Assembly (NCBI GenBank): GCA_031213475.1
Contig: JARUPZ010000029.1
Location: forward strand, 7,961,290-8,025,289
Reading direction: 5' to 3'
Length of the DNA stretch: 64,000 bases
Source of the DNA: Nereocystis luetkeana
Taxonomy: Eukaryota > Sar > Phaeophyceae > Laminariales > Laminariaceae
In this document: piece after piece, positions 8,255 through 64,000 of the stretch
How positions within the stretch are numbered: the stretch's first letter is position 1
How the letters are laid out: every line of letters begins with the position of its first letter
The notes under the pieces: generated by a model
Told to the model about the DNA's origin: nothing
Seen by the model: the letters and a program-made list of their open reading frames with translations, nothing else
The model's database searches: none
Program-made: the position numbers and the translations under genes

Positions 8255-9164
8255 CTGCGATGATAGGTGGGCCACATTCATCCAGATCGAAAATAAATCA
8301 GGAACAATATCTCCTGCAATAGGTAGGTAACGGCGATTCACCAAACCACAACCTGCAACAGGTGGACCACGCATCACGAACAATACACTCAAAACTTCTA
8401 AGCCGGGAATCGGGGACAAAATAAGCCTACTCTAATACCTACATATTGATACTATATATTACAAAAAGAGGGGATGGCGAAAACAACGTCCAACCCCCCA
8501 CCATAAATACATACTTCGACGCGTCGTCATCCGGGGGGGCGGAGAAATTGCACGCACGTGCCAGGTTCTTCAGGTTCGTACGTGAACGATTTATTACACG
8601 GTTGTCTGTATAGCAGGAGGTGATATAGATATGTATGGCCGGCATGGTACCAAATGGGATCAGGGTGCCAGGTGGGCCTCCGGCGGTTCCTGCGGAGGGC
8701 TGAGTATATTTCTGCACCACTCAGTCTCAGGGGGACGGGTGGCAAGATGGGAATGGGAGCAGGGTGGCAAATGGGATGGGCCCACTGCGGGGGTCAAAGC
8801 ACCACACGAGAACAGGGTGCCAGGTACTGCTGTAGTACAAACCATGCCAGTCCCGAAATGGACACCGTACGTACGTGCAACTTCCACGCTCATGTTTAAT
8901 ACCGACTCGTAAAAGTACAAATTTAAAAGGCAAGACAATATGCTGTTTCGGCAATCAAAAAAAAAAAAAAAACAGAGTACACATGATACACACCATGGGC
9001 AAGCTGAATGTTATATGTACCAGCTAGGACGCTGGGACCCGTTGTGAACGAACGGGGCTTCGCATGGGTGCCTGCCGGCACCCATGCTCCGGATAGGGAA
9101 CTATACCTCAGGGCCAATTCGTGATTACTTTTTCTATGCAACTTAAATAAAAGGTTCGATCTTC

Positions 9165-9272
9165 ATCACGGGGGACCATAGTAAATAGGACCTAATATTG
9201 TCAGTAAAAAGAGCGGAATATATAGGTTTTTGTCTATACCGTAGGTCCTGTTTAATATGGTCCCCCGTAATA
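9165..9272. repeat. MITE A copy 4
   Basis: ACGGGGGACCATAGTAAATA to TATGGTCCCCCGTAATAG. Confidence 0.85.
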
Positions 9273-9883
9273 GTACGAACAGGATCAGGTCAATGCCAAG
9301 TGGTGCAGGGTAAAGGCAACGCCGAGTTTCAGTTTCTCAGTTTTTTTTGTACCTCTGTCTATGAAATACTCAAATCATGACTACAGGCAGTAATCGCAGT
9401 ACACGTATATAACCCGAGATTTTGCGAGTTTGAGAGGTATCGAACACCTGACACCTGACATCGATCGGCAATACAGAAGAACAGCCCGACAACCGCAAAG
9501 TACACTGCTAACGTGGGTAGATATTTCAATGCGGACCCCGAAACATTCAGGTTGGATATACGTGAAGCACACGCAGCACAATATCCACAGCAGCACAGAA
9601 CCCGGACATAATGCGAGTACTCGCAGAGGGAGCAAGCTGTCTCGAACCCTCGATTACCTCCAGCAGTAGTGGTCTCGCCGAAATAACTTGACGTGTTTTT
9701 CACCAGAAAATGGCGAGACCAACATCTTATATTTTTACATTATACCAGGGTCACCGTATATCTCCAATTTACTTATTAGATACCTGGTGAACCTGGCATT
9801 TATGTGGATATGTTTTTTTTCAAACTGAAGAAATCCCGTCTGTTGTGAGTACGACCGACTCATGTTGAGCGGTTGAAACTCAA

Positions 9884-12016: not shown

Positions 12017-12124
12017 ACCCCTTTAGAGCCGCCTTTAAAACCGCAGTCCCGTTTTGCGGGCACACTACTAGAAATTTGAGTGGTTTGTCCCCAAAACGGG
12101 ACTGCGGTTCTAAAATGGCTTTAA
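12017..12124. repeat. MITE B copy 3
   Basis: CCCCTTTAGAGCCG on the left, with an internal duplication of the Leu-like CGCC/CCGC segment; ACTGCGGTTCTAAAATGG and TTAA on the right. Confidence 0.75.
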
Positions 12125-16536: not shown

Positions 16537-16624
16537 GTAACCCCTTTAGAACCGCAGTCCTGTGTTGGGCACAAACCACTCAAATTCTGAGTAGTTTTTC
16601 CCCAAAACGGGACTGCGGTCCTGT
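16537..16624. repeat. MITE B copy 5
   Basis: TAACCCCTTTAGAACCGCAG to ACTGCGGTCCTGTGA; the right terminus is lost. Confidence 0.75.
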
Positions 16625-30200: not shown

Positions 30201-33200
30201 GGGAGTGGCATAGGAGTTGAGCGGTAGCAAGCCTCTCCAGAACATCGAGTCGGTTTTCATGGTGGAGTGACAAGCCACCCGTGCACCAGACGAGCCACCC
30301 GCCCACCAGGCGCGCGGTCGGGGACCTCAGACCCTTTATTACGGGGGACCATAGTTAACAGGACCTATGGTATACATAAAAACCTATATGTTTAACCATT
30401 TTTACTAACAATATTTGGCCCTGTTAACTATGGTTCCCCGTAATAGACCAAACCCTTCGGTGTGGAGTGCTCTTGCAAGTTTCTCCTTGCCAGAGTTTCT
30501 TTGTTGCCTACGTGATATTTTAATTCCGGGTGTATCATATATTGGAAATATCAAATATCGCTGTTTATTGATGTGCTGTCTGAAAGGAGTTCGTTGTTGG
30601 TAAACGGAGTTCGTTGTGGTGCAATGGCGTTCTTTTGTTGCGAAGTCTAGTTCGTTTGTTTTTCGTTCTTTTGTTGTGAAATGGCGTTCGTTGTTACCGG
30701 TCGACAAATCTCGCGACTCTTCAGATTGGGCGAATCCTGGAAGATCTGGACGCTTTGGCGGGAAACATCGCGTTCAAGCACTGCTCGGAGGACCCCTCCT
30801 TTCCCCTTTTGGTCACCGCTTCTGTGGACCGGCGAGTCAAAACCCAACGACAATTCAGCCCACCCGACCTCGATGCCGGCACCTTAATTTTGATGTGTCT
30901 TACCAGTGTTCCTTGGTACATGCGTCCTATCGACACGTACGTATGCTGTATGCTGCAGTAGCCATCCCACCTCGGAAACATTAGCACAGTAGAGTCACAG
31001 GGCCTGTACATACGTATTCTTCCGGAATCTGCTTTCGGGCCGGGCATGGGACATGTCGGGTTTAAAAAAGGTCAGGCTTTACGGTGGGGGGGGGGGGGGG
31101 GGGGGGGGTCGGGGGTTAGAGGTGGGCGACGATTCTATTTTTCTGATCCCGCCTTGTTCCGCCGGATTGCTTGAAGTCTGCTTGAAGCCTCGGTTCTCTT
31201 CCTTGGCATTGTGCCACACAAGGAGAGGCAAAACAAGCGAAGAGTGAGACCACGGCCTCAGAGGCACAACCGTGGGCACTCGCGAGCCCCCTGGAATAGC
31301 TTCTGAACGATGAACTGTCGCCGTGAACCATTCGCACCTCACACAGATCATCTGCAGATACAGTAGATCATCCTCGTACATAGATCCTGACCTGCTGTTT
31401 TGAGGTACTGCTGTGCAGCGCCTCTATAGCGCAGACCCAACCCAGGAAATAAATCCAAGATCACGCAGATTAGATGACTCACACCCGGCAACATGAGCTA
31501 GATCTTACAGATCATACAGATCATACAGATCATGATCTGTGTATCTGCCCTGAAATATCTAGATCATGATCTGTAGATGATCTGTACATGATCTGTACAT
31601 GATAGGTCCGAGGTGTGCTTATTAGTACCTGGTAGTGCTTAGTAGGTTATTTATTTAGTCTGCGGATAGACTCTATCGGGGTGCTGTCCAAAACAGTTTT
31701 TTCGTTTCCCTCCTTTTTTTCCCTTTTTTTTGTTTTCCTCTTTTTTTTTCTTCCCTGTTTTCCGTTTTTTTTTGTTCTATCTGTTCCTTAATCCAATGCT
31801 TTTCGATGTCGTTGCTTTTTTTTTTTTTTTTTTGCGTCCGTTTCAGGATCGTCCTCAAAAGGCACCCGCGCCTGGACTGCGACATGACCTTGATGGGGAG
31901 AGTGGTGTGGACGGGAAGGTCTTCGATGGTCATCAACATGAGGCAAGGCTTCGCCCCCCCCTCCCACGCCCTTCCACTCCGTTCGGGTGTGGGAGTGCTG
32001 CAAGCGCTATATTCCATACCTCCTCCCGGTGTACCTTGCTCGTATTACGGGGGACCATAGTTAATAGGACCAAATACTGTTAGTAAAAGGGTTAAATGTA
32101 TAGGTTTTTATGTGTACCATAGGTCCTATTAACTATGGTCCCCCGTAATAGTAGTGTCGTCTCGTTGGCGTGCACGGGCAAGAGAGGGGAGCATGTGGAT
32201 AGAGCGTTTTTTTTTTGTTTTGGTGCTATCGCCGTGGCCGTTATCTACCGGCGTGGTTTCGTTATCTTAGTGGTGCTCCGGTCCGATTTTTTTGTCGCTT
32301 TTCCAGACGAATAAGCCGCTGGAGTACTCTCCTCTAGCTGCACGTGAAAAACGTACCAGCAATATGGGTGCAGCTCTGAGTAGCTCCGCGAGAGTCGACT
32401 GGAAGTCTTGTCTCCATCGCTCGCTGAGGGTAAACGAAACTTGGAGGACGCTAATGGTGACAATTTTTGCGACCCTCCGCGCGTGCGTGATGGTAGTAAG
32501 CGTGAGCGCAGCAAAGGTGGAGCCTGCAGCCCTACACCTACGCTGGGAAACAGTAATCAAGACCAAACATGCTTATTCCGGGGGACCATAGTTAATAGGA
32601 CCTACGGTATACATAAAAAAAAAACTATATATTTAACCATTTTTACTATCAATATTTGGTCTTATTAACTATGGCCCCCCGTATTAGGAAAAATACTGGA
32701 ATACCAGAGTATATATTTTTCTTGTATGTAAGAGGGGTCCTGATCACTATTAGTGGTCCTCCGTAGTATTAGATACCTATATGCACCTAGTTATAATGAT
32801 CGTTGGCATTGCACATTAATACATCAAAGCATTGCTTGTTTTCCGGGACAGCGGGGTAAGGTGGTAGGTGCTATTGTGCAGGGTGGGGCATGGGAGTTGT
32901 GCTTTTCGGTTCTGTTGCGGCCCTCTCAGTATGAGCTGTTGCGCGAGCCTCGGACGGGAGCGTCTCCTCGGGGACCCCGCAGCACTCGTGCCAGCGAACC
33001 GTTTCGATCTCACGCTATTTTTCATGCCGACAAGAATTTTCCATTCTAGAGCATTGACCACCAATAGGAAACCCTAGGGCACTTGATGCCTTAGTTTTAT
33101 TAGGCCTACTCTATTTTCAACGGCAGCCACGTTTCGGACAAGAACAACTTGGTTTTTGGTGTTGGGGTGTGTGTTTGAGGTACGATGGTAAATGGGTTAA

Positions 33201-35798
33201 CCCTTTTAGGACCGCAGTCTCGTTTTGGGGACAATTTGGGACAAACTACTTGGGGATTTGACTGGTATGTCCCCAAACGGGACTGGAGTTCTGAAAGGGT
33301 CAACAGCGTTGATACTTTTGCTGCCCCCCCGCTGTTTTCTCGTGTTACCCCATCTTGGCAGGTGTTCATCGTCACCACCCGGGGTTTGCTATGTAGGAGG
33401 GGACCTTTGGGCGGACGACGACAGCTGCTGGTTAGACGCCAACTTCACCTTCGTTGCCCGAGACAGGTACAGCAAGTGGGAGCTTATATAAACGTAGGCT
33501 TGCCCTAGTCGCGCGCTCGGAGTGGGGGGGGGGGGGGCGGTTAGGTGCCGTGGTACCACCACAGGTAGTTTTTTTTCAATTCAGTTTTTTTTTGTTTAAT
33601 GCCCCATACTTTTCATGAACGTTCCTCTCGCTGGTTTGCCGGCGTTCGTTGATGTCAGCTGCTACCGTTGGTGGGATTCACCCTCTCACGTGTGCTGCAT
33701 GTCGACTGCAGACTCAGATGGTTGCCGTTGTGCGAAGGCCGTTTTGTGGAAGGGGACGCATCGGGGTCATCCCCTCGATCAACGGGGGTTCTAGAGCGCT
33801 CCCCCTGCCCCCCCCCCCCCCCTCGCATCCCCACCGTGCGGTAGAAACCCTTTCGTATGTGCTGTACATCTCCTTTTTGACGGACAAACTACTTAGAAGT
33901 AACGCTGGGTATGTTTACAGTAGCACATGGAGAAGTCTTCTTTTTTCCGAGCTTTCTTTTCGTGACGGTAGCGGTGCGATGCACTTCCACTTGTTGAATG
34001 TTGCATGAGTAGGGATTTCACGCGGTGTCCAACTCAAGGGCTCCGTCGTTGCTGTTTCTTTTGGGCGCCTGGCCTTGTCGTCTTTCGGGCTTGTGCGCTC
34101 GCTGTTCCTTTGGCCTCGCGTGCTGTCGCGAAGGTTGACCTTAACCCCTTTAGTACCGCAGTCCCGTTTTGCGGACAAACTACTTGGAATTTGAGTGGAT
34201 TGTCCCCAAAACGGGATTGCAGTCCTAAAAGGCTTAACGCTTCTACTACCCCAGGCGTAATGCTCTTTTCGGGTGCCATCACACTCGATCCCTGATGTAT
34301 TGCCGAATGTTTTTTTTCTAGATGGACGTATCGTTCTCACTAATTCAAGAACTCTACGTACCTCTGATTCCAAATAGTCGGACCCAAAATATCATCGAGG
34401 TACTTATAATCTAGGGTTGAAACACACTCTTTTTTTTCGGGTGTATGTTGTTGGTGCTGGCGCCCAAGAGAGACCGGTCGAAGCCGCGCCGTCAGCCCTC
34501 TCAATCTCAGGAGCAAACCTCCCCAACAAGCTTCAGGGGATGATCATGACACCAAAGAGACTGACCCGGAGGATGGCTGGAGGGCCATCTGGAGGGTGGT
34601 GCAGAAGCACAAGGACCGGCAGGCTCTCGAGAGAAAGGCTGCTAAGGAGGCAAGTATATTTCAAACCGTGGGCCGGTACAGTTTGGAGTGCCTGGACCGA
34701 TACAGGTTTTTCCTTGAATAGTTTGGAACACGCGGGGTCTGCGAACGAACGCCGTTCTGGTTGGTGGTGTTTTTTTTTTTTGTGGCTTTTGCGGCGTAGA
34801 TTTTTTTTCTGCACACGAGGGTTGGAAGGCTGGAAGTTCTCGAATGCCAGCTGAAGAGCTCCTGTAGTATTTGTAGTGTCTCCCCACCGTACGAAAAGTT
34901 AGCTTTTGCAACAGTTTGACTGCTCCTGACCGCGACAGCTTGCGCCGCCGCTGGCAACACCTCCTGTTTATACGAAGCACCAGCTATTGTACTGGTATAT
35001 GGCAAGGGTGGTGACACGAAACGTACTGGTTTTTCTTCACTGCCAGCATGGTAGCACGTGCTCGTTGTCGTACGTTCGTCGCGTGCATTCCGTAGACCGG
35101 AGGGCGCGGCCACAAACCTGAACTTCGTACGTATGCCATCCTATACCATCCGGTTTCGTTGACAATAGCGGCAGGCCTTGTTAAGGACATTGACAGCACA
35201 TGTTACTTGATGGCGGTAAATATCTAGATGTCGGTCGCCACGTACCGCGTGCAAGGTGTGTAATATGCGTAGCGACACGCTTATTTAACAAACCACGCAA
35301 ACACATAGCGGGAAGGGGGGGGGGGGGGGGAGGCTGTTGCCGCGGCTTGTGAAGGTGGACAAGTGTAAAAACGCATGCGAATTGAGATGCAAAATATAGA
35401 GTGACCTAAAACAGACGGCAAGATACAAATCAACCTGCCAAATATTCAACAGCCAACCAAGCGGCCGAAGACACGAGCCAACGAATGAAGACCCAATCAA
35501 AAAAACAAACATGGGAAGGAAAACAAAACAATTCAGGAGAAAACGAACACACGGGACTCTCTGTCCTATCTGTCTGTCTTTCGTGGGCAGGGTGCAGGGC
35601 ACGAAAAGTTCTCGGAGCTGGAGGCTGCGAGGGCGAAGAGGGAAGAAGAAGCGATCAAGCTTGTCGCGGCTGGCTTCCCGCTGCAGCACCTGCCAGCCCT
35701 TGCAGACCCGCATGCCGTGCTCGTGCGACAAACGGTAAGGCAAGAGCCGGTGGCTTGACACAAACTAAAAACCAGCTGTAGTTTGTTCTGCCAACGGA

Positions 35799-48900: not shown

Positions 48901-51900
48901 TCGGAATTATCGCCCTCGAAGGTGGGTGGGTGTGTTCTGGTACATGTGCCCGTACTCCCTCCGTTTCGACTGTTTGATTTCTTCGTACACCGCTCTCTTA
49001 CACTCGTGGCTCAAGCTAACCGAAGTCGAATCTCATAAGGGTCGCTGTAGAAGACGTTATGATGTTGTGCAAGAACGCGCGATACTTATCCATGGGGAAC
49101 ACACGGTAAAACTTGATAAAAAACATCAACAAAGACAACAGAGTACACCGGTAGAACACAAGGCATCGGCAAAATAAAATCCACACGGAATAACCACTGA
49201 ACATATTGTTTAGTCACAAATTGTGGATACATTAATGCCAAATGGCAGCATCAATAATAATTCCGTAAGCTGGGGAAAATAACATGGAATTAGCCATGTT
49301 AGGCCTCCGATAGTACAAGCCCTGCTGCGCGCGCAAAAGGCGCCGCACAACAAGAAATGTCTGCCAACTCGAAGAAACCTGTGATTTTTGCGTGTAGGTT
49401 TCAGCGAGAGTGATCCTACTCTGGATTCAAGTACTAACAAAAAATGTGGGTGCAATACACGGTGCTAAGCAGCTTCAAGTCAAGGGGAAAATTTGCGCGT
49501 ATTTATTTTTCTTGCTTCCTGAAAGTCTGTATTCACTCCCGCACCCTGACTCACCACACCACAGGCCAGGGTCGGTCACTTTTCCGACGAAGCCGGTGGG
49601 GCCATCGGAGCGGCATATCAAGGTGTTCGCCAACTTGACGTCGCAGTGGATAAAGCCGGCACCATGCATAAAGTGAAGGCCTTGAGTGCCATCCGCCTGG
49701 AGGCTGGCCACAAACAACACAACGCCAAGAAAAACGAATCGTTGCAAAGAAGTGGGCATCCCGTATTGTTTTTTTTCAAGGGTACAGCTAGTCCAAACGC
49801 TGGCACGCGTGAACGGATGAGTGCCATGTTTCAAACTTTGAGGAGGCAGAATGTGCGCCCGGAACGTGTGCGTGCTGGGTAAGGATGGTGGCACTTTTGC
49901 AAGAGGGCACGCGAAATCGAGTAGTCTATGGGTTGACGCAACACTACCTACTCAAAGTATACAGCAATACAACAGGGGCTACCTCGAAGGTAATCGACAC
50001 GTTCGATTATATATACGCGCAGTAGATATCCCCTGTAATGTCTTCGTTCGTATTCTAGCGATATCGTGTGCACTTAAAAACGCCATCCACTGCAGTGTTG
50101 AAACACTTTCTATTCCGATCGCCGTAATCGGATGCCTATATGCAACTTAACCCTTTTTATACTGCAGTCTCATTTTCGGGACAAAGTACTACAGTCTCGT
50201 TTTCGGGACAAAGTACTGCAGTCCCGTTTCCGGGACAAAGTACTGCAGTTCCGTTTCCGGGACAAATTGCTTAGGATTTGACTGAAATGCCCCCAATACG
50301 GGACTGCAGTTCTAAAAGGGTTATAAATCTATCGTCAAGAACGCCGGCGCTTAACGTCGAAGCGTTGGAGAATAAACCCCGACCTGGCGAAACGCGTCGA
50401 TCGGCCTTCCTGTTCTCTTCAACACTATTCTATGAGTAGCGAATCGGGACGCATCTGTTGCAAACGAGAGACACCATATACACACGCGTATCGTGGGGCC
50501 TGGTCACCTCAGTTGCTGGGAAAGACTGAACTTTTTGACGCTTGTTCCGAAGCTTGCTTCCAACATGTCACAAACAGCGATTTCCATCACTATACCCTCG
50601 GACCCCGCAACATCGTTTAGGCACTCGATGTCAATAACGTTCGGATGCGGGCCCATCCTGAGATGTGAGGGCATACAGGAGGTGGCGGGGGGGGGGGGGG
50701 GGGGCGGGGGGGGGGTATGAGGCGAGAGTTTTCGGGCCACCCGAGCGTCTGAATTTCAAACCCCCGACGTTGCGAAGGACACACCAAAGCGCGGCAGTAG
50801 CAACTATAGTAAAGCTACCATCCATGTGCGGTTTTCGACACTATCGCCTTGGCATGGGTGGCTGCTCGCCGCCGACAAGCGTGCGCCTATCTATTAGCAA
50901 AGACAGTCGCGGTCAGTACGCTGATCTCTAGGCGAGACAAAAGAGGTGGGCACTCACACGGCGTAGGCGATAAGCTCCCGTTTCAGGCAGGCTCCCGAAT
51001 TACCCTGGTGCAATAATGGATGGGAAGGGGTCTGGTGACGTCGGCAAAGTTGAAACGATCGCGTGAGTAAGCGACGGCAAGCAAAATGTGTCGCGAGACG
51101 TGCACGGCCGCAGTAGCCGCAGCAGCGTTTTACGTGTTGTACTGCTCCTGAAGCAACAGGCTCACGGAAGAACAGTGCCGTTGAATGTCCGTGGTATTAT
51201 GTAGACGCACGGTGTGAATCTCAAGTTTACCGTGCACCACAAATATCAAGTATATGTTTCTTTTTTTTAATGTTTTCGTATTTGTTTATTTGTACTTGCC
51301 ATTTTTCGCTATTGCGCTAAAATATTATTGAATAAAACCATACATACATACAACGCGGCGATAATTCAATGCGTGACTCTTCTTGTGGTCATGGACCAGG
51401 TTATAGTTATTAGGAAGACTGTGCCAACATCCCTACCAACAACAAAACCATCAAAGACGACAAATGTATGCATTTTATTTCCACCTGCGTACAACATAAC
51501 GACCTTGGCACTTCACCGCATAATTTGGGTAGCGATACAAATATCTAGAAAACCTAAAAAACACTGCCAGACACTGAAGCGCCCTTCCTTCTAACAAGAG
51601 CCATCAGAACTCACCGGCACGACCGTCTTTATTGCGTATTCTTTACGAGTTTTGTTGCATAGGCCCTTGTACACGACGCCGAAGCCCCCTTGTCCTAGGA
51701 CGACGATGTTCTTGAATCGCAGGTGGGGTTTGGTTAGCGCGTTCGCTGCGAACTCGCGTCTACAAGCGCAATCTTGTGCCTTCCGTGTGCGAACTATATC
51801 GCGCAAAATGCCAGAGTAGCACAATTGTTGCATCCACGCTTGGCGCGGAGGTCCACCCGGATGTAAATAGCCCAAAGCTTGCCAGCCATCGGTCCGCTGT

Positions 51901-54142
51901 GACGGGCGGAAAGGGGGTGCGCGCGGGGAACACTCTGTTAACCTGGACGGCGTTCATGCCAAATTTTAGTTTTCGGCAAGGAAAAAAAATACCTCAGCAT
52001 GTTTCCCCTGGGGCTGAGCGTGGTTGTGCGCGCGTCGGTGTCGCCGTGATGTCAATAGCAGTGGTTAGGGGTGGGTTATAATTTCACGCCGATCGAGGAG
52101 GAAGTGGTTAAGCGCGTTACAAAGGCACCTACTTTCGTCTGATGTCAACCGAAAACATGCTGTGTCGCGACGGACTGATGCCGTCTGAGCGATCTACCAC
52201 GACACGGTACGGTAAGAAAGGTCTGAACGCGGCAAGCAGCAGAACGCACACCAAGCTGCAAGCTCAAAGAGGTGTCTACAGCCGTCTCGCGCACCTCGTT
52301 GACCCACGCTTCTGATTCAGCCTTCTCCTTTTGGAGTGTTTCCAGTGTTTTCTTCAGCGCCTTTGTGCGCCCCTACAGTAGCTCGCGGAGAAGGTAAAGT
52401 GGGACAGCGGTTAGCGATTGAGTTTACCGCGGGCACCCCAAAGGAATCACCATTAAAAAAGTGGTCTCGAATATCGAGCCTGCGGGAGAATTCTGGGTTG
52501 ACACGCTGTCGGTGTATGAATGAACAGCCCGCGCGAACGCCGGCAAGGCGTACGGATCTAACCCAGGGCATCTACACGTATTAACACACACTACTGATAA
52601 CCTATTGCAAGTTCAACTACTCCTGGTGACGCGTCCAAGTGGTGCTGATGTGTGGCAGCACAAACCAGTCATACCGATGTCGTCAAAAAATCACATATCA
52701 CGCACGGACTGCCCGCTGTAGCTTGCCGAGCAGGAAAACAAAACATCATACCTGTTCTTCGGCCAGCAAGTTGCCCAGCGCATCGGACGCCATTTTCTCG
52801 TGTGCGAGCTCATCCTGGGGGCGTAAGGGTTGTTTGGCGGAAGAACCGGAGCGAGAGCGAGCGAGTTCTTGAAAACACTACCAGATGTACAGTACTTTTA
52901 GTTCAGCAGACCGTCGCATGCGTACATACTTAGTAGAATGTTATATATTTATGTACCTGGTAAATGTTTTTGGCCGCCTTGTGAACCGCAGGTTTGGAAT
53001 ATAAAAAGACACCAATTTGAGGTAAGTTATCAGACATATCGCAGCAGCCGGGCTCCACACAACCGTCAGTTTGCATTCTTCCTCGCTACTGAAGCGAATC
53101 GATACGCACAGCAACACAACATGCAAACGTTATCGACGCCACCCAAAATCACATGTCACGCACGGACTGCCCGATGTGGCTTGCCGAGCAGGAAAATACA
53201 ACATCAAACCTGTTCTGCGGCCAGTAACTCGGTCTTCTCCTGCACGATAACAGCTAGCGCGTCTGACGCCATCTTCTCTTGTTCAAGCTCGCGCTGAGGC
53301 GAAATCGTTGTTTGACGGAAGCACCGGGGCATAGAAGAGTTCGAGTTCGTAACAACGCTTGGTTCGACGAGGCGTACAGCAGTGCTTACGTATGATATGT
53401 AGTAGGTACATGTTTTCTTCCGCCTCGTGAACCGCAGCATGAAAAACAAATCGCTCTTATAATAGCGCATGAGGTGAATCATTCAACTTCTACGTACTGT
53501 AGCCCTAAAACACATCGCAGCAACTGGGGAGGCAACCGAGAGTATGGAATATATACCAGGTACCAGGTATGCGCTAAGCGCGGTCGCACTAGCATGCAAG
53601 TTGACCAACCAACGTCTTTCAGCAGCAGCGGTAGCAGCAGCAATAGCAACAGCAAGAGTCCCGGAAAAATGCAAAAAAATGGGAAATATTCCGGCATTGA
53701 AACGGCGACTCACGCTAACAACCATGAGACGCTTCTCGGCTGCATCCGTGCGCTGGCGGCAAGCTAAAACCTCTGCGTTCATCTCTTCAATCAGCCTTAT
53801 CGCATGCGCGTGTTCGTTGCGAGCTTTGGCCCGCACATCCAGCAACTGCGCAGCTAGCGCAGCTTCTCTCGCACTAGCACGAAATCCACTATCATCAGCC
53901 GCCGCTGCGGTCGTCCTCGGGAACATCTGAGGGTTGGGGTGCCGCACTGCCCCTTGCTCGTGCAATACGGCAGGCTTCCAGGCTGGCGGGTTGGTGGTTG
54001 CTGACGCGTATCGATTGTTGGTAGGTCCTACTACCGGCGGTGGTCGGTAGATCGGACGTGACGCATGCCGCGCATCTCCCCGCACTGACATGCCGGCGTT
54101 CCTCTCTGGCGGTGGGCTGGCGACGATATTGTGCGGGCACGC
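45954..54142 (-). CDS. Protein kinase with coiled-coil N-terminus and Ala/Pro-rich tail (kinase A), 5' end not found
   Basis: Minus-strand exons: 54142-53714, 53293-53210, 52814-52752, 52372-52252, 51745-51615, 51004-50958, 50657-50508, 49703-49555, 48440-48262, 48041-47925, 47583-47482 and 46868-45954 (TGA). All phases join to give 828 residues. Residues 1-90 are Pro-rich and disordered, and about 95-230 are helical and coiled-coil. The kinase domain starts near 235: glycine loop LGQGGFGVVYKG, YAIK lysine (272), helix-C KRE (286), HPNVID, catalytic HCDVKLANTL (Asp363, Asn368), DPG in place of DFG (386-388), GTVGW with PLE in place of APE, DAFSVGV, and a last helix with NPLERLSMPELTTLL. A ~260-residue low-complexity tail with EAPH and AEG repeats follows. 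It is a Ser/Thr- or tyrosine-kinase-like protein whose substrate is unknown. Exon 48041-47925 (39 residues) is the weakest: it is in phase but sits as an insert between helices F and G. The initiating exon was not identified. Confidence 0.86.
50147..50326. repeat. MITE B copy 10 with expanded tandem arm, in a kinase A intron
   Basis: The left arm unit (TACTGCAGTCTCGTTTTCGG GACAAAG) is repeated four times in tandem at about 50158-50266; the right arm is single. Outer TTAACCC and GGGTTATAA are retained. Confidence 0.85.
52752..52814 (-). repeat. Duplicated coiled-coil exon of kinase A (copy 2)
   Basis: This 21-codon partner of exon 53293-53210 is shorter by one heptad and keeps both splice phases, so the coiled coil stays in frame. 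Confidence 0.8.
53210..53293 (-). repeat. Duplicated coiled-coil exon of kinase A (copy 1)
   Basis: This 28-codon exon contains EKMASDALAVIVQ and ends LLAAEQ. The next exon downstream (52814-52752) contains EKMASDALGNL and ends LLAEEQ. Both begin and end in phase 0 and both are followed by intron starts of the form GT(A/T)TGA. The flanking introns also resemble each other, for example the CACGCACGGACTGCCCG word near 52700 and 53157. This is a tandem exon-plus-intron duplication. Confidence 0.8.
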
Positions 54143-56667: not shown

Positions 56668-56764
56668 TTAACCCTTTTAGAACCGCAGTGCCGTTTTGGG
56701 GACACTTCACTCAAATTTCAAGTAGTTTGTCCCCAAAACGGGACTGCGGTCCTAAAAGGGTTAA
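56668..56764. repeat. MITE B copy 11
   Basis: TTAACCCTTTTAGAACCGCA to TGCGGTCCTAAAAGGGTTAA. Near-consensus arms with TTAA on both sides. Confidence 0.88.
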
Positions 56765-59960: not shown

Positions 59961-60944
59961 TGCTGGGGGTCGACAAACTGCCATGACCACGACCAAGGCA
60001 TGACCATGATAAAAACCATCAGTTTACCGGGCTGTTGAAGCTGCGTCGATACACAGAATCCTTCATTTTCACGCGTCAAGCGACGGTCGACGTCTAAATA
60101 TTTGCTAATAAAAAAGTCAGTACCATGCAAAGCAATCGCACCTCAGAAACAAAACACGAAACCGGGTGCCGGTGACGAACAGGCGAAAACAATGACGACA
60201 ATTCCTACTCAGCAAATTACGTGGCGTTCATGGTATTTTGGGACAACGGTCAAGTTTCTCGCCCGCAGGGACGGTGGGTATGTGCTGGTATTTTATTTCC
60301 TCCCTCCTGCTCTGAGATTTTACTTAAAATAGCATATTCTTCTTAAACACGTCTCTACAATCGTGGCTCGAGCAGACCGCAACCGAACCCTGTACATAAG
60401 GTACGCTGCTAGCGACAGCAGTCCCAATTTTGCTTGAAAACGCAAGCCATTTTTTCGTGCAAAAAAAGCAAATTTCGAAACCTCGCAAGAGACAAAACAA
60501 AATAACATATGTAGTCCTTTTTGAAAAAACAAGCGGAAAACATCGAAGCTACAAAATATGCATGAAAATGCTCCTGTTGAAATAAATGTATTTTTCGTCA
60601 CACAATATGGGAGCGTTTTCGCTCAATGTCAAAGAACCGTTTCAATAATCTCGAAAATAATAGTGGTGCTTGCGGTCCTAGCCCCCCGTTCAGACAAGCC
60701 CCGATACATGAATACTTCGATCGGGAAAAGGCACCGCTCAACAAGGAATGCTTTCCAACCCAGAGAAACCTGTGAAATGCCGCACGTCCTTAGCAAGAGT
60801 CATCCGCCTGTTGGAGTCAAACGCACAGTTCCCAAATCGTGGGTGCAGCACTATTAATAGTAGTAAAAAGGGCTGGAGTCACGGGGACTTGTAGCGGCTA
60901 TTGTTCTGTTCCCTCCTGCAAATCAAGCTTTTCCCCTTTGAAGC

Positions 60945-61045
60945 CCGACTCACCGCACCACAGCCCGGGGTCAGTCACTTTGCACACGAAGCCCTTAGAG
61001 GCCATTCGGATTGAATATCAACGTATTTTATGTCGAGCTTGTTAC
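60945..61045 (-). pseudogene. Kinase DFG-exon fragment, copy 2
   Basis: The minus strand reads KVTDPGLWCGESG followed by the same GTGAGTC donor as kinase A, but has a stop just upstream (NGL*GFVCK). It is a relic of the HRD/DFG exon. Confidence 0.75.
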
Positions 61046-61394
61046 GAACGCATGGTTGGAAGTAATTTCGTTTGGTCGTAGGTGTTGACTGGTTCGATGA
61101 CTGTCTAGTGACCGCTGTTGTTGCTGAAGGTGCAGTCAGGACACGTCACCTGCACAATTGGAAACACGGATGTGTACCTGCAGAAGGATCGGCTTGGCGC
61201 GCTCTTTTCCACAGTTTTATCCATGCACGCACACGTTCCGGGACTAAAGACTGCCTGCAAAGTTTGAAACATCACGCCAAACCGGGCACACGTTCCGGTG
61301 CTTGTACGTGGTGTACAATTAACACACACACGACGTCCTGCAGTATTCTCGTGAATTTTGTTTTTCACGCTGTGTTGTTGGTGGCAACCTCGAA

Positions 61395-61530
61395 GCGGAC
61401 GCCACAAAAAACGCCTGGATTACATGCACATCCTCGGGATCATACCTTGCGATCCCGAGCTCGACAACACGTTGATTTGCCGCTCCCGTGACCCTACGGG
61501 CTTTGTGGGCAAGGTCACTGACCCTGACTC
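61395..61530 (+). pseudogene. Kinase HRD/DFG-exon fragment, copy 3
   Basis: Plus strand: a catalytic-loop-like CDPELDNTLICRSRDPTG and GFVGKVTDP, preceded by the same intron-like GTTTTTCACG/GTGTTGTTGGTGG words as kinase A. It abuts copy 4 in the opposite orientation. Confidence 0.75.
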
Positions 61531-61544
61531 ACCCCACGCAATGG

Positions 61545-61735
61545 TGAGGTGAGTAGGGTTAGCCCCTCCTGCCACAAAACCCGCGGGGACAAGAATCTGG
61601 CTGATCGACGTGTTGTCGGCCTTGTACTCGCAGCGAATGATCCTGACGCTGTGCAATTGGCTCGGGCCTTCCGTCGCATCGGCTTTTGAAGCTGGCCAAG
61701 AATAACATAGAGTGAAGAAAAAAGGCAATCATGTT
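61545..61735 (-). pseudogene. Kinase HRD/DFG-exon fragment, copy 4
   Basis: Minus strand: DATEGPSQLHSVRIIRCE, KADNTSISQ, then AGFVAGGANP. The HRD region is degraded, and FVGKV has become FVAGG. It forms an inverted pair with copy 3. Confidence 0.7.
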
Positions 61736-62231
61736 GTAGGGCGTCATGTAGAGATAGGGCGCGCGAAACCGAGGTATCATAGACAAAAAAAAATGCTGGT
61801 TTCCAACTGCGCTGGTGGTATTGACTCACCACACCCACAACCAAAACAGTACCCACCGAACAGTGATCGAAACGGTCAACTCTACGTCAGGCAGTTATTG
61901 CCGCCAACAATGTTTTCCTTCTCATCCCTACAAAATTGTACGGGCAAGAACGCCGTTCACTGCAGAGATGGAAGTGTTGGCTTGTTAAATAACCGGAATT
62001 GACTGCTTCAGAACATAGTATATCTTCAGGAACGCCTGCGCTAAACGGCGAAGCCTATCGGTAGCCTTCCTGCGCGGGCCTGTCATGCCGATACAAATCT
62101 ATCACAAGCAAGATAACCCGCCTGTGAACGTTGTGCCATGGGGTCTGGTGACCTGGTCTGTTGAGCAAATGAGAATACGGGGACGCTCTTTCCTGTACAG
62201 GCCTTGAACACGTTGAGCTAGTTATGGCTCC

Positions 62232-62330
62232 GACTAGTAGAGTTGCGCGGGATGGAAAACCACAACAACGGCATTGGCGTCGATTGCTTGAGCTATGTCA
62301 TGGGATCAGAATTCTCGTCATGGAGATCGC
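62232..62330 (+). pseudogene. Kinase helix-C/beta-4 exon fragment
   Basis: NHNNGIGVDCLSYVMGSE corresponds to HPNVIDIECLNDVAGSE of kinase A (exon 50657-50508). A frameshift follows; another frame continues with VMEIAMYNM, matching VMEIAVCDM. Confidence 0.7.
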
Positions 62331-62499
62331 AATGTACAATATGCCGAGGAAATACACGGTAACGACTTGCGTATCGTTCAGCCTTGCCCGGCAAATTAGG
62401 TGAGCACACCCGAAGGGAAATTTTTCGCATGTACATGTACAAACGTGTCTTTGGTTTGCAGCATGGTATGCCTCTGTGTGTTCGTATGTAGCGTTGCGC

Positions 62500-62585
62500 G
62501 GGGTAAAAGAACACAATATTGTCATCAGCATAGAGTGTATGGGCGATGTCACGGGATCAGATTTCCATTACAAGTCTGACTGCAG
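62500..62585 (+). pseudogene. Kinase helix-C/beta-4 exon fragment, second copy
   Basis: KEHNIVISIECMGDVTGSD matches the HPNVIDIECLNDVAGSE segment. It lies about 270 bases after the previous copy and upstream of HRD copy 5, in the same order as in kinase A. Confidence 0.7.
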
Positions 62586-62784
62586 AACGGTCGGTTTCGC
62601 GCGCTCTTTTCCATGGTCCCATTCATGCAACATACTCGTTTCGGGACTGCATGTTGCCCACAAAGTTTGCAATATCACGCTCATTCGTGCACACATTCCG
62701 GTGCTTGTACGTGTCTTACTATTCGAAAATGATGTCCTACGGCATGATTTTTTTTTCTTGACGCCATGTTTGTGACTAACTTTG

Positions 62785-62905
62785 AGGCCGACGCAACAGA
62801 AAGCTTGCAGCACATGCACAGCATCGGGGTCATTAATTGCGATCGCAAGCTCGACAACACGTTGATCTACCGCTCCGATCGCCCTACAGCAAAGTGGTCA
62901 AGGTG
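62785..62905 (+). pseudogene. Kinase HRD/DFG-exon fragment, copy 5
   Basis: LQHMHSIGVINCDRKLDN, then TLIYRSDRPT. A frameshift separates it from KVTDH. The catalytic-loop Asp and Asn are still visible. Confidence 0.75.
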
Positions 62906-62924
62906 ACCGACCACACTCAGGTGT

Positions 62925-63085
62925 GCTGTGTTGCGTCAGTTACTTTGACCATGAAGCTTGTAGGGCAAATCCGAGCGGTAGGTGAAAGTGCTGTCGACGT
63001 TGTGTTCGCAATTAACGACCTCGATGCCGTGCATGTTACCCAGGCCTTCGGCCGCGTCGGCTTCTAAGCTCGCCAAAAACTACAT
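62925..63085 (-). pseudogene. Kinase HRD/DFG-exon fragment, copy 6
   Basis: Minus strand: EADAAEGLGNMHGIEVVN, then CEHNVDSTFTYRSDLP, followed by a frameshift and VKVTD. It is inverted relative to copy 5, meeting it at the DFG end. Confidence 0.7.
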
Positions 63086-63669
63086 AACGTCAAGAAAAAA
63101 ACACGGGTAGCCATGTCGTACGAGCAGGGTAGAAACGTTTCAAAGTGTACAACTGAACCGCTCGAAACCGATCATTCTGCAGGTAGACAAAAAAACACGC
63201 GGCATCCAACTGTGCAGGGGGGTTGCTTACGTAGGTTGCTTACCTACTGTACCTGCAATAGTAGTAGCAGTCATTGCGCGATGATCGAAACAGTCGACCA
63301 CACGACGCGGGAAAATGCCACCAACAACGTTTTTCGGTAGTATTCCTACGATACCGTATAGGCCAGAGCGCTGTTCACTACAGTGTTGAACTAACATACT
63401 TTACGCTCACCGGAATCGGCTCGTTTGTAACATTTTAAGTCGCCAGGAAAGCCGGCGCAAGTCGGCGAAACCCATCGATAGCCTTCCTACGCAACACTAC
63501 CACGCTTAGACATACCTATTGCAAACACGAGAAACCGCACGTACACTTGTGCCGTGGGGGCTGATTACCTGGTCTGTTTGGGCAGGCCCGAATACTGAGT
63601 ACGGCATCGCATATTCCCGTGCGTGCCTTGAACAAGTCTAGTTAGTCATGTCTCCGTCAAATATAAGTA

Positions 63670-64000
63670 GTAAAGCTGCACCGCACGAAGAACCACATTG
63701 AAATCATGGCCGCTGAGGCCTTGAGGATTGTGGTGGGATCAGAACGTCTCGGATTGCGGGTCGCTGCATGCGACATGTACACGGCGTGTACGAGAAACAA
63801 CGACCTGGTGCCACCCTCGGACAACTCATCGAGTGAGCATACCCCACAGCAGGTGTGTATACGTACATGCGTATCTTACGTTTGCAACATTTTGAAGTCT
63901 CCGTATTATACGCTGCAAGTGCTGTAAAGGATGGGAAACCACGAGCATATCATTGGTGTCGAGTGTCTAAGCGATGTCACGGTGTCAGGAGTTCTCGTCT
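63670..64000 (+). pseudogene. Kinase helix-C exon fragments, two copies running to the window end
   Basis: KNHIEIMAAEALRIVVGSE at about 63670-63740 and NHEHIIGVECLSDVTVSG at about 63930-64000 both match the beta-4 segment of kinase A. The array continues beyond the window. Confidence 0.6.

Follow-up and report, generated by a model that had tools for sequence, protein, structure and literature searches.

The window, as we call the whole 64,000-nucleotide stretch that was analysed (C29:7961290-8025289 of a 465-Mb eukaryotic assembly), carries a protein kinase gene, kinase A, on its minus strand at 49.5-52 kb. Taken alone, the catalytic-loop and P-loop exons of this gene each match Pkinase below the curated cut-off and the beta-4/beta-5 exon is without a Pfam match, whereas the three exons joined match solved kinases (best E 1.8e-6). 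The unit containing kinase A is repeated downstream as U2 (79.6-89.6 kb) and U3 (125.6-137.9 kb; window coordinates, continued here past the window end), and the kinase units are mostly 60-70% alike in aligned blocks. A fourth tandem unit, at 57.7-66 kb, is degenerate and encloses a zig-zag array of kinase exon pieces. At the position of the DFG segment named in the original prediction, DPG stands in eight and DLG in one of the nine kinase genes compared, so that a change in these letters in the array copies does not count as decay.

Table. Features of kinase A and of the zig-zag array (window coordinates; sense is given relative to kinase A, abbreviated A)
Feature	Position	Strand	Remarks
Kinase A catalytic-loop exon (HCDVKLANTL + DPG motif)	49555..49715	-	translation; approximate, splice-site consensus; array reference
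Kinase A beta-4/beta-5 exon	50507..50660	-	translation; limits approximate
Kinase A P-loop exon (GQGGFGVVYKG, AIK)	51615..51775	-	translation; limits approximate
c1, partial catalytic-loop exon end + flank	60741..61040	-	profile; same sense, = A 49350-49636
c2, catalytic-loop exon copy	61085..61558	+	opposite sense, = A 50006-49545; frameshift, Lys to Glu
c3, catalytic-loop exon copy	61521..61750	-	same sense, = A 49543-49765; catalytic Asp to Glu
Intron + partial beta-4 exon	61797..62213	-	profile; same sense, = A 49929-50568
Beta-4 exon copy	62246..62468	+	profile; opposite sense, = A 50662-50452
Second beta-4 exon copy, partial	62497..62561	+	opposite sense, = A 50662-50598; weak, E 0.00025
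c4, catalytic-loop exon copy	62598..62939	+	opposite sense, = A 49908-49546; loop Asp, Lys, Asn kept, broken after
c5, catalytic-loop exon copy	62935..63099	-	same sense, = A 49571-49734; Asp to Glu, Lys to Asn
Intron + partial beta-4 exon	63256..63638	-	profile; same sense, = A 49970-50569
Beta-4 exon copy	63685..63889	+	profile; opposite sense, = A 50656-50456
Beta-4 exon copy	63928..64034 (crosses window end 64000)	+	profile; opposite sense, = A 50659-50547
P-loop exon pieces, five	64002-64850	mixed	same, = A 51642-51733; opposite, 51669-51577; same, 51567-51694; opposite, 51703-51586; opposite, 51773-51360
Remainder of dead gene	64955-65518	same sense	profile; = A 51995-52548
Quasi-palindrome 1 (pal1), c2/c3 tail to tail	61328..61749		422 bp, self-inverted 65.6%, E about 1e-35; centre ~61539
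Quasi-palindrome 2 (pal2), c4/c5 tail to tail	62750..63101		352 bp, self-inverted 72.8%, E about 1e-56; centre ~62926
1.4-kb direct repeat	61178..63988		copies 61178-62560 / 62580-63988, 63%; each with one palindrome

Mapped with a profile built from three family genes (A, U2 and U3), the array is made up of 17 pieces of kinase origin, lying in either orientation, between 60741 and 65518. The original prediction had placed at least five copies of the catalytic-loop exon, in alternating orientation, and four of the beta-4 exon within 3 kb. The copy numbers were borne out: five catalytic-loop pieces are present, the first of them partial, and run same, opposite, same, opposite, same with respect to kinase A, while four opposite-sense beta-4 pieces are joined by two partial same-sense ones. 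The extent has to be corrected, as the array passes position 64000 and continues through P-loop pieces into a same-sense remainder of the gene. Both ends of the array lie in the orientation and order of a family gene, which indicates a single gene with its middle multiplied. That all pieces derive from a segment of kinase A, introns included, holds for the introns, which align with units 1-3, and fails for kinase A as the specific source, since the paralogue on C3 is nearer: in exon alignment c1-c5 are 79/70/65/67/65% identical to the C3 paralogue and 71/68/61/66/61% to kinase A, the former value being higher in five of five. Identity to any kinase exon compared is at best 70% for c2-c5 and 79% for c1.

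In line with the proposal, c2 and c3 meet tail to tail close to the splice donor, as do c4 and c5, and the pairs form two quasi-palindromes whose turning points lie near the 5’ splice site of the catalytic-loop exon. Self-comparison of both shows strong inverted similarity (Table). Their predicted RNA folds each beat 100/100 shuffles (z -11.0 for pal1, -16.4 for pal2), in agreement with the expectation that a transcript would form long imperfect hairpins.

The array has a second copy in the genome. Sequence 61171-63101 recurs in inverted orientation at C29:7769175-7771111 with 96% identity, within an inverted segmental duplication that pairs window positions 47485-66536 with C29:7765759-7784800 (97.7% over 19 kb) and takes in kinase A, duplicated as A’. 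An inverted partner exists for U2 as well (C29:7744593-7746669), so the duplication arms, ~220 kb apart, may reach about 38 kb.

Catalytic residues or reading frame are lost in all four near-full exon copies: the residues are gone in c2, c3 and c5, and c4 retains the loop residues and breaks afterwards. In several copies, splice donors can still be recognised and long stretches are still open. Divergence among c2-c5 is flat across codon positions (110/288, 88/288 and 106/285, or 0.38/0.31/0.37, over six pairs), compared with 348/1728, 238/1728 and 782/1728 (0.20/0.14/0.45; nine genes, 36 pairs) in the kinase genes; these counts leave aside the partial c1, a8298, the stop-containing k8178, and both kC23b and kC23c, which are nearly the same as kC23a. 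Comparison of the large duplicates gives substitution counts of 0/165 in the catalytic-loop exon of kinase A (49561-49725), 1/151 in its beta-4 exon, 1/232 in its P-loop exon, 14/741 and 8/870 in its introns, and 19/610 in four array exons (6, 1, 8 and 4). The duplicate does not diverge evenly along its length (0.1-7.4% per kb), and such rates are therefore no clean clock. The 1/144 found in c3 counts against free decay. The fourth unit nonetheless has the make-up of a duplicated, unprocessed pseudogene, with introns and flanks that align with units 1-3, lost residues and frames together with a scrambled exon order, and an absence of purifying selection since duplication, as seen in the flat divergence of c2-c5 and in the 19/610 against 0/165.

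Further fold-back structures occur in the same kinase cluster. Array 2, at 96661-102074 (window coordinates; C29 = +7961289), ~32 kb past the window end, multiplies the P-loop exon: orientation switches at 11 of the 13 steps from one of its 14 copies to the next, an insert separates two copies, and there is some overlap of the mapped pieces. A one-base gap relative to A, U2 and U3, read from the alignment, is common to all 12 scorable copies, two others being short of that column. Growth of array 2 by stepwise dimer duplication is unsupported, as copies in the same and in opposite orientation are equally identical (difference 0.0002, permutation p 0.49). FastTree recovers three same-orientation neighbour pairs (supports 0.85-0.87) together with pairs of opposite orientation (0.77 for array 2 and 0.93 for array 1, the zig-zag array).

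A 522-bp palindrome derived from the end of the catalytic-loop exon, with arms 89% alike, lies at C29:8203117-8203638 and is the first of three tandem copies spaced ~3.5 kb apart (C29:8203117-8210681), whose units agree at 99-100% across the 2.0-2.4 kb that align. Its predicted RNA fold has a z of -45.7. It shares an exact match of 38 nt with a C23 kinase, which spans a splice site (read as 9 nt of exon and 29 nt of intron), and one of 24 nt with k8286; within exons its best 21-mers carry one mismatch (kC23b, k8286). The arms differ evenly by codon position (6/35, 6/36, 6/36), which speaks against coding use. In one palindrome examined at this place (C29:8202001-8211500), the arms are 100% alike mid-arm and 66-77% alike close to the centre, as though conversion between the arms had homogenised them. 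A related degenerate copy with the beta-4 exon in several orientations is found at C29:8298482-8300580, and includes a fold-back kinase piece (C29:8300151-8300518, 69%).

We conclude that the array is very probably (about 0.82) the non-coding debris of a dead fourth tandem kinase, multiplied by recurrent local inverted duplication. Decay by inverted duplication was one of two possibilities raised beforehand, and it is favoured because divergence is flat, catalytic residues and frames are lost, and the process is repeated elsewhere in the cluster. A fourth member of the family would have died, and its central exons would then have been multiplied in place. A fold-back copy was probably born close to that end of the catalytic-loop exon which bears the 5’ splice site; the 1.4-kb unit holding it would subsequently have been duplicated directly, and smaller turns may have multiplied the beta-4 and P-loop exons. 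The physical process would most simply have been template switching or fold-back synthesis during replication or repair, followed by tandem duplication, given that such synthesis or switching can produce alternating orientation with short turns, and that tandem duplication of a palindromic unit would yield the 1.4-kb repeat. The ODIRA inverted triplications (PMC10766186; see also PMC4689423 and PMC10766183) likewise carry inverted repeats with palindromic junctions that arise from template switching at forks. Units in the array measure 0.1-1 kb, and their junctions, too old and decayed to show which process acted, yielded no diagnostic footprint of a mechanism. ODIRA units are much larger. Our literature search found no paper on an alternating exon array, and among the papers listed for brown algae or Ectocarpus only PMC12477816 bore on the question. 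Should the array be nothing but debris, it would clearly exemplify how a gene dies through repeated inverted duplication, with a 97.7% duplicate and still constrained kinase genes for comparison.

The other possibility raised was that the array is a source of hairpin RNA targeting an intact paralogue: its palindromic transcripts would be diced to 21-nt RNAs that silence the intact kinase genes. We consider this unlikely. The predicted folds far exceed shuffles and supply the long foldable inverted repeat of an hpRNA or endo-siRNA locus, and one Piwi-domain locus was found in the genome (C2:13350796-13356173, five exon matches). Ectocarpus is reported to have just one Argonaute, and small RNAs of 21 nt (PMC12477816). 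The genome analysed here, which may be that of a brown alga, has at least 68 light-harvesting matches, and the solved structures nearest to one of these proteins are of the LHC, ACP and FCP types. However, the perfect complementarity of siRNA length is missing from the family sequences compared. Across nine kinase targets (three genes in full and six fragments of 700-800 bp, each around a single exon) the array has no exact 21-mer, the longest match being 18 nt, to kinase A; over ten exon ends the best 21-mer carries one mismatch to kC3 and two to kinase A, where five mono-shuffled arrays give 4-6 mismatches against the kinase A exon. A scan of 56-64 kb found nothing in Rfam at the gathering score. 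Pairing is preserved in 7/8 window-paired substitutions of pal1, but in just 3/8 of pal2, and its upkeep between the duplicates is non-significant for either palindrome, with few substitutions to count (pal1: 13 kept, where simulation gives 8.3 ± 3.0 and 8% of 200 runs get as high; pal2: 7, where it gives 5.9 ± 3.4 and 38% of 200 get as high). Mean fold energy is better than 99% of simulations for pal2 and 65% for pal1, a comparison that leans toward the observed palindrome because the simulations mutate already decayed sequence. The array exons also diverge more between the duplicates than the introns of kinase A, and the palindrome arms are only 66-73% alike. Precedents for such loci exist. 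The inverted pseudogene pairs of rice (PMC2708354) are likewise adjacent paralogous pseudogene pieces in opposite orientation with a stem >100 bp, yet the two pairs are 83% and 96% alike, against 66-73% for the array arms, and yield mapped small RNAs. The D. simulans hp-tHMG cluster and other hpRNA loci (PMC10317233) likewise consist of tandem gene-family fragments in both orientations near their paralogues, but they are of recent origin, their arms are near-perfect and their siRNAs match the targets with full complementarity, and the array arms are old, decayed and without an exact 21-nt match in the family sequences tested. The inverted duplication model of miRNA gene birth (PMC3237417) likewise starts from an inverted fragment of the future target gene, also by way of inverted pseudogenes; the array stem is without significant sign of selection. 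A putative hairpin-RNA role would concern mainly the younger palindromes at 8.203 Mb, outside the window.

Three further readings fare worse than decay by inverted duplication. It is very unlikely that the array is a transposable palindromic element, a MITE or fold-back element with captured kinase exons. Palindromic multi-copy elements do exist in this genome, but in a search that skipped very common words and scored the best candidates alone, each of the 15 listed matches to the array sequence falls at a kinase-family place on C29 or C3, and dispersed copies with common ends were not seen among them. Moreover, the palindromes of the kinase cluster (those of both arrays and of the places at 8.20 and 8.30 Mb) have no sequence in common with the remaining loci sampled, their repeat fraction being 0.00. 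That the array stores alternative exons, or donors of gene conversion, for the active kinases, with orientation switched by recombination, is highly improbable: the surviving splice donors and open stretches would suit it, but catalytic residues are gone in c2, c3 and c5, the copies of array 2 have a one-base gap in common, codon-position divergence is flat, and identity to the kinase exons compared is as low as given above. Finally, palindromes are hard to sequence (PMC4057610), and the array could in principle be an assembly artefact of inverted repeats. We regard this as extremely improbable, because the same structure recurs at two places on one contig, which makes a one-off error unlikely, and because an arm divergence of 27-34% is too high for a chimaeric fold-back read.

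A palindrome or close inverted repeat (arms >= 90 bp, E<1e-6) was present in 6 of 12 random 10-kb windows (L025, L026, L030, L031, L032 and L034), and eight 3.5-kb pieces around other kinase exons had none with arms >= 90 bp. The 669-bp palindrome of L030 and one of six tested in L026 are high-copy elements, those of L031, L032 and L034 partially overlap repeated sequence (0.32-0.46), and one of two in L025 and a second L030 inverted repeat (8625-9409) are without repeat overlap. The L030 element (L030:3107-3775, C12:1193107-1193775) has arms of ~330 bp, 89% alike, and many dispersed copies in the genome. This genome-wide background was considered as an explanation of the kinase-cluster palindromes. 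The comparison at most suggests a raised rate of local inverted duplication in the kinase cluster, the sample of 12 windows being too small to claim one.

A broader proposal, which we hold only tentatively and think doubtful, is that the kinase cluster acts as a nursery of hairpin-RNA genes, in which frequent inverted duplication would turn dead paralogues into palindromes, those at C29:8203117-8210681 being live and the array in the window dead and older. If palindromes do form unusually often in the cluster and part of them are transcribed, the birth of hairpin-RNA genes out of a tandem kinase family could be watched outside animals and land plants.

Self-inverted stretches without a kinase-profile match were also noted at window coordinates 65955-66190 (beyond the end; 72%), C29:8294765-8295118 (68%) and C29:8207788-8208128 (68%). 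The window additionally holds two families of ~100-bp repeats in both orientations, apparently MITE-like, at 242-357, 470-570, 566-655, 768-862, 1244-1357, 9165-9275, 12034-12118, 16538-16622, 30337-30446, 34141-34237 and 56668-56764, among others, and one of the two families is also present inside the kinase A intron (50239-50323).
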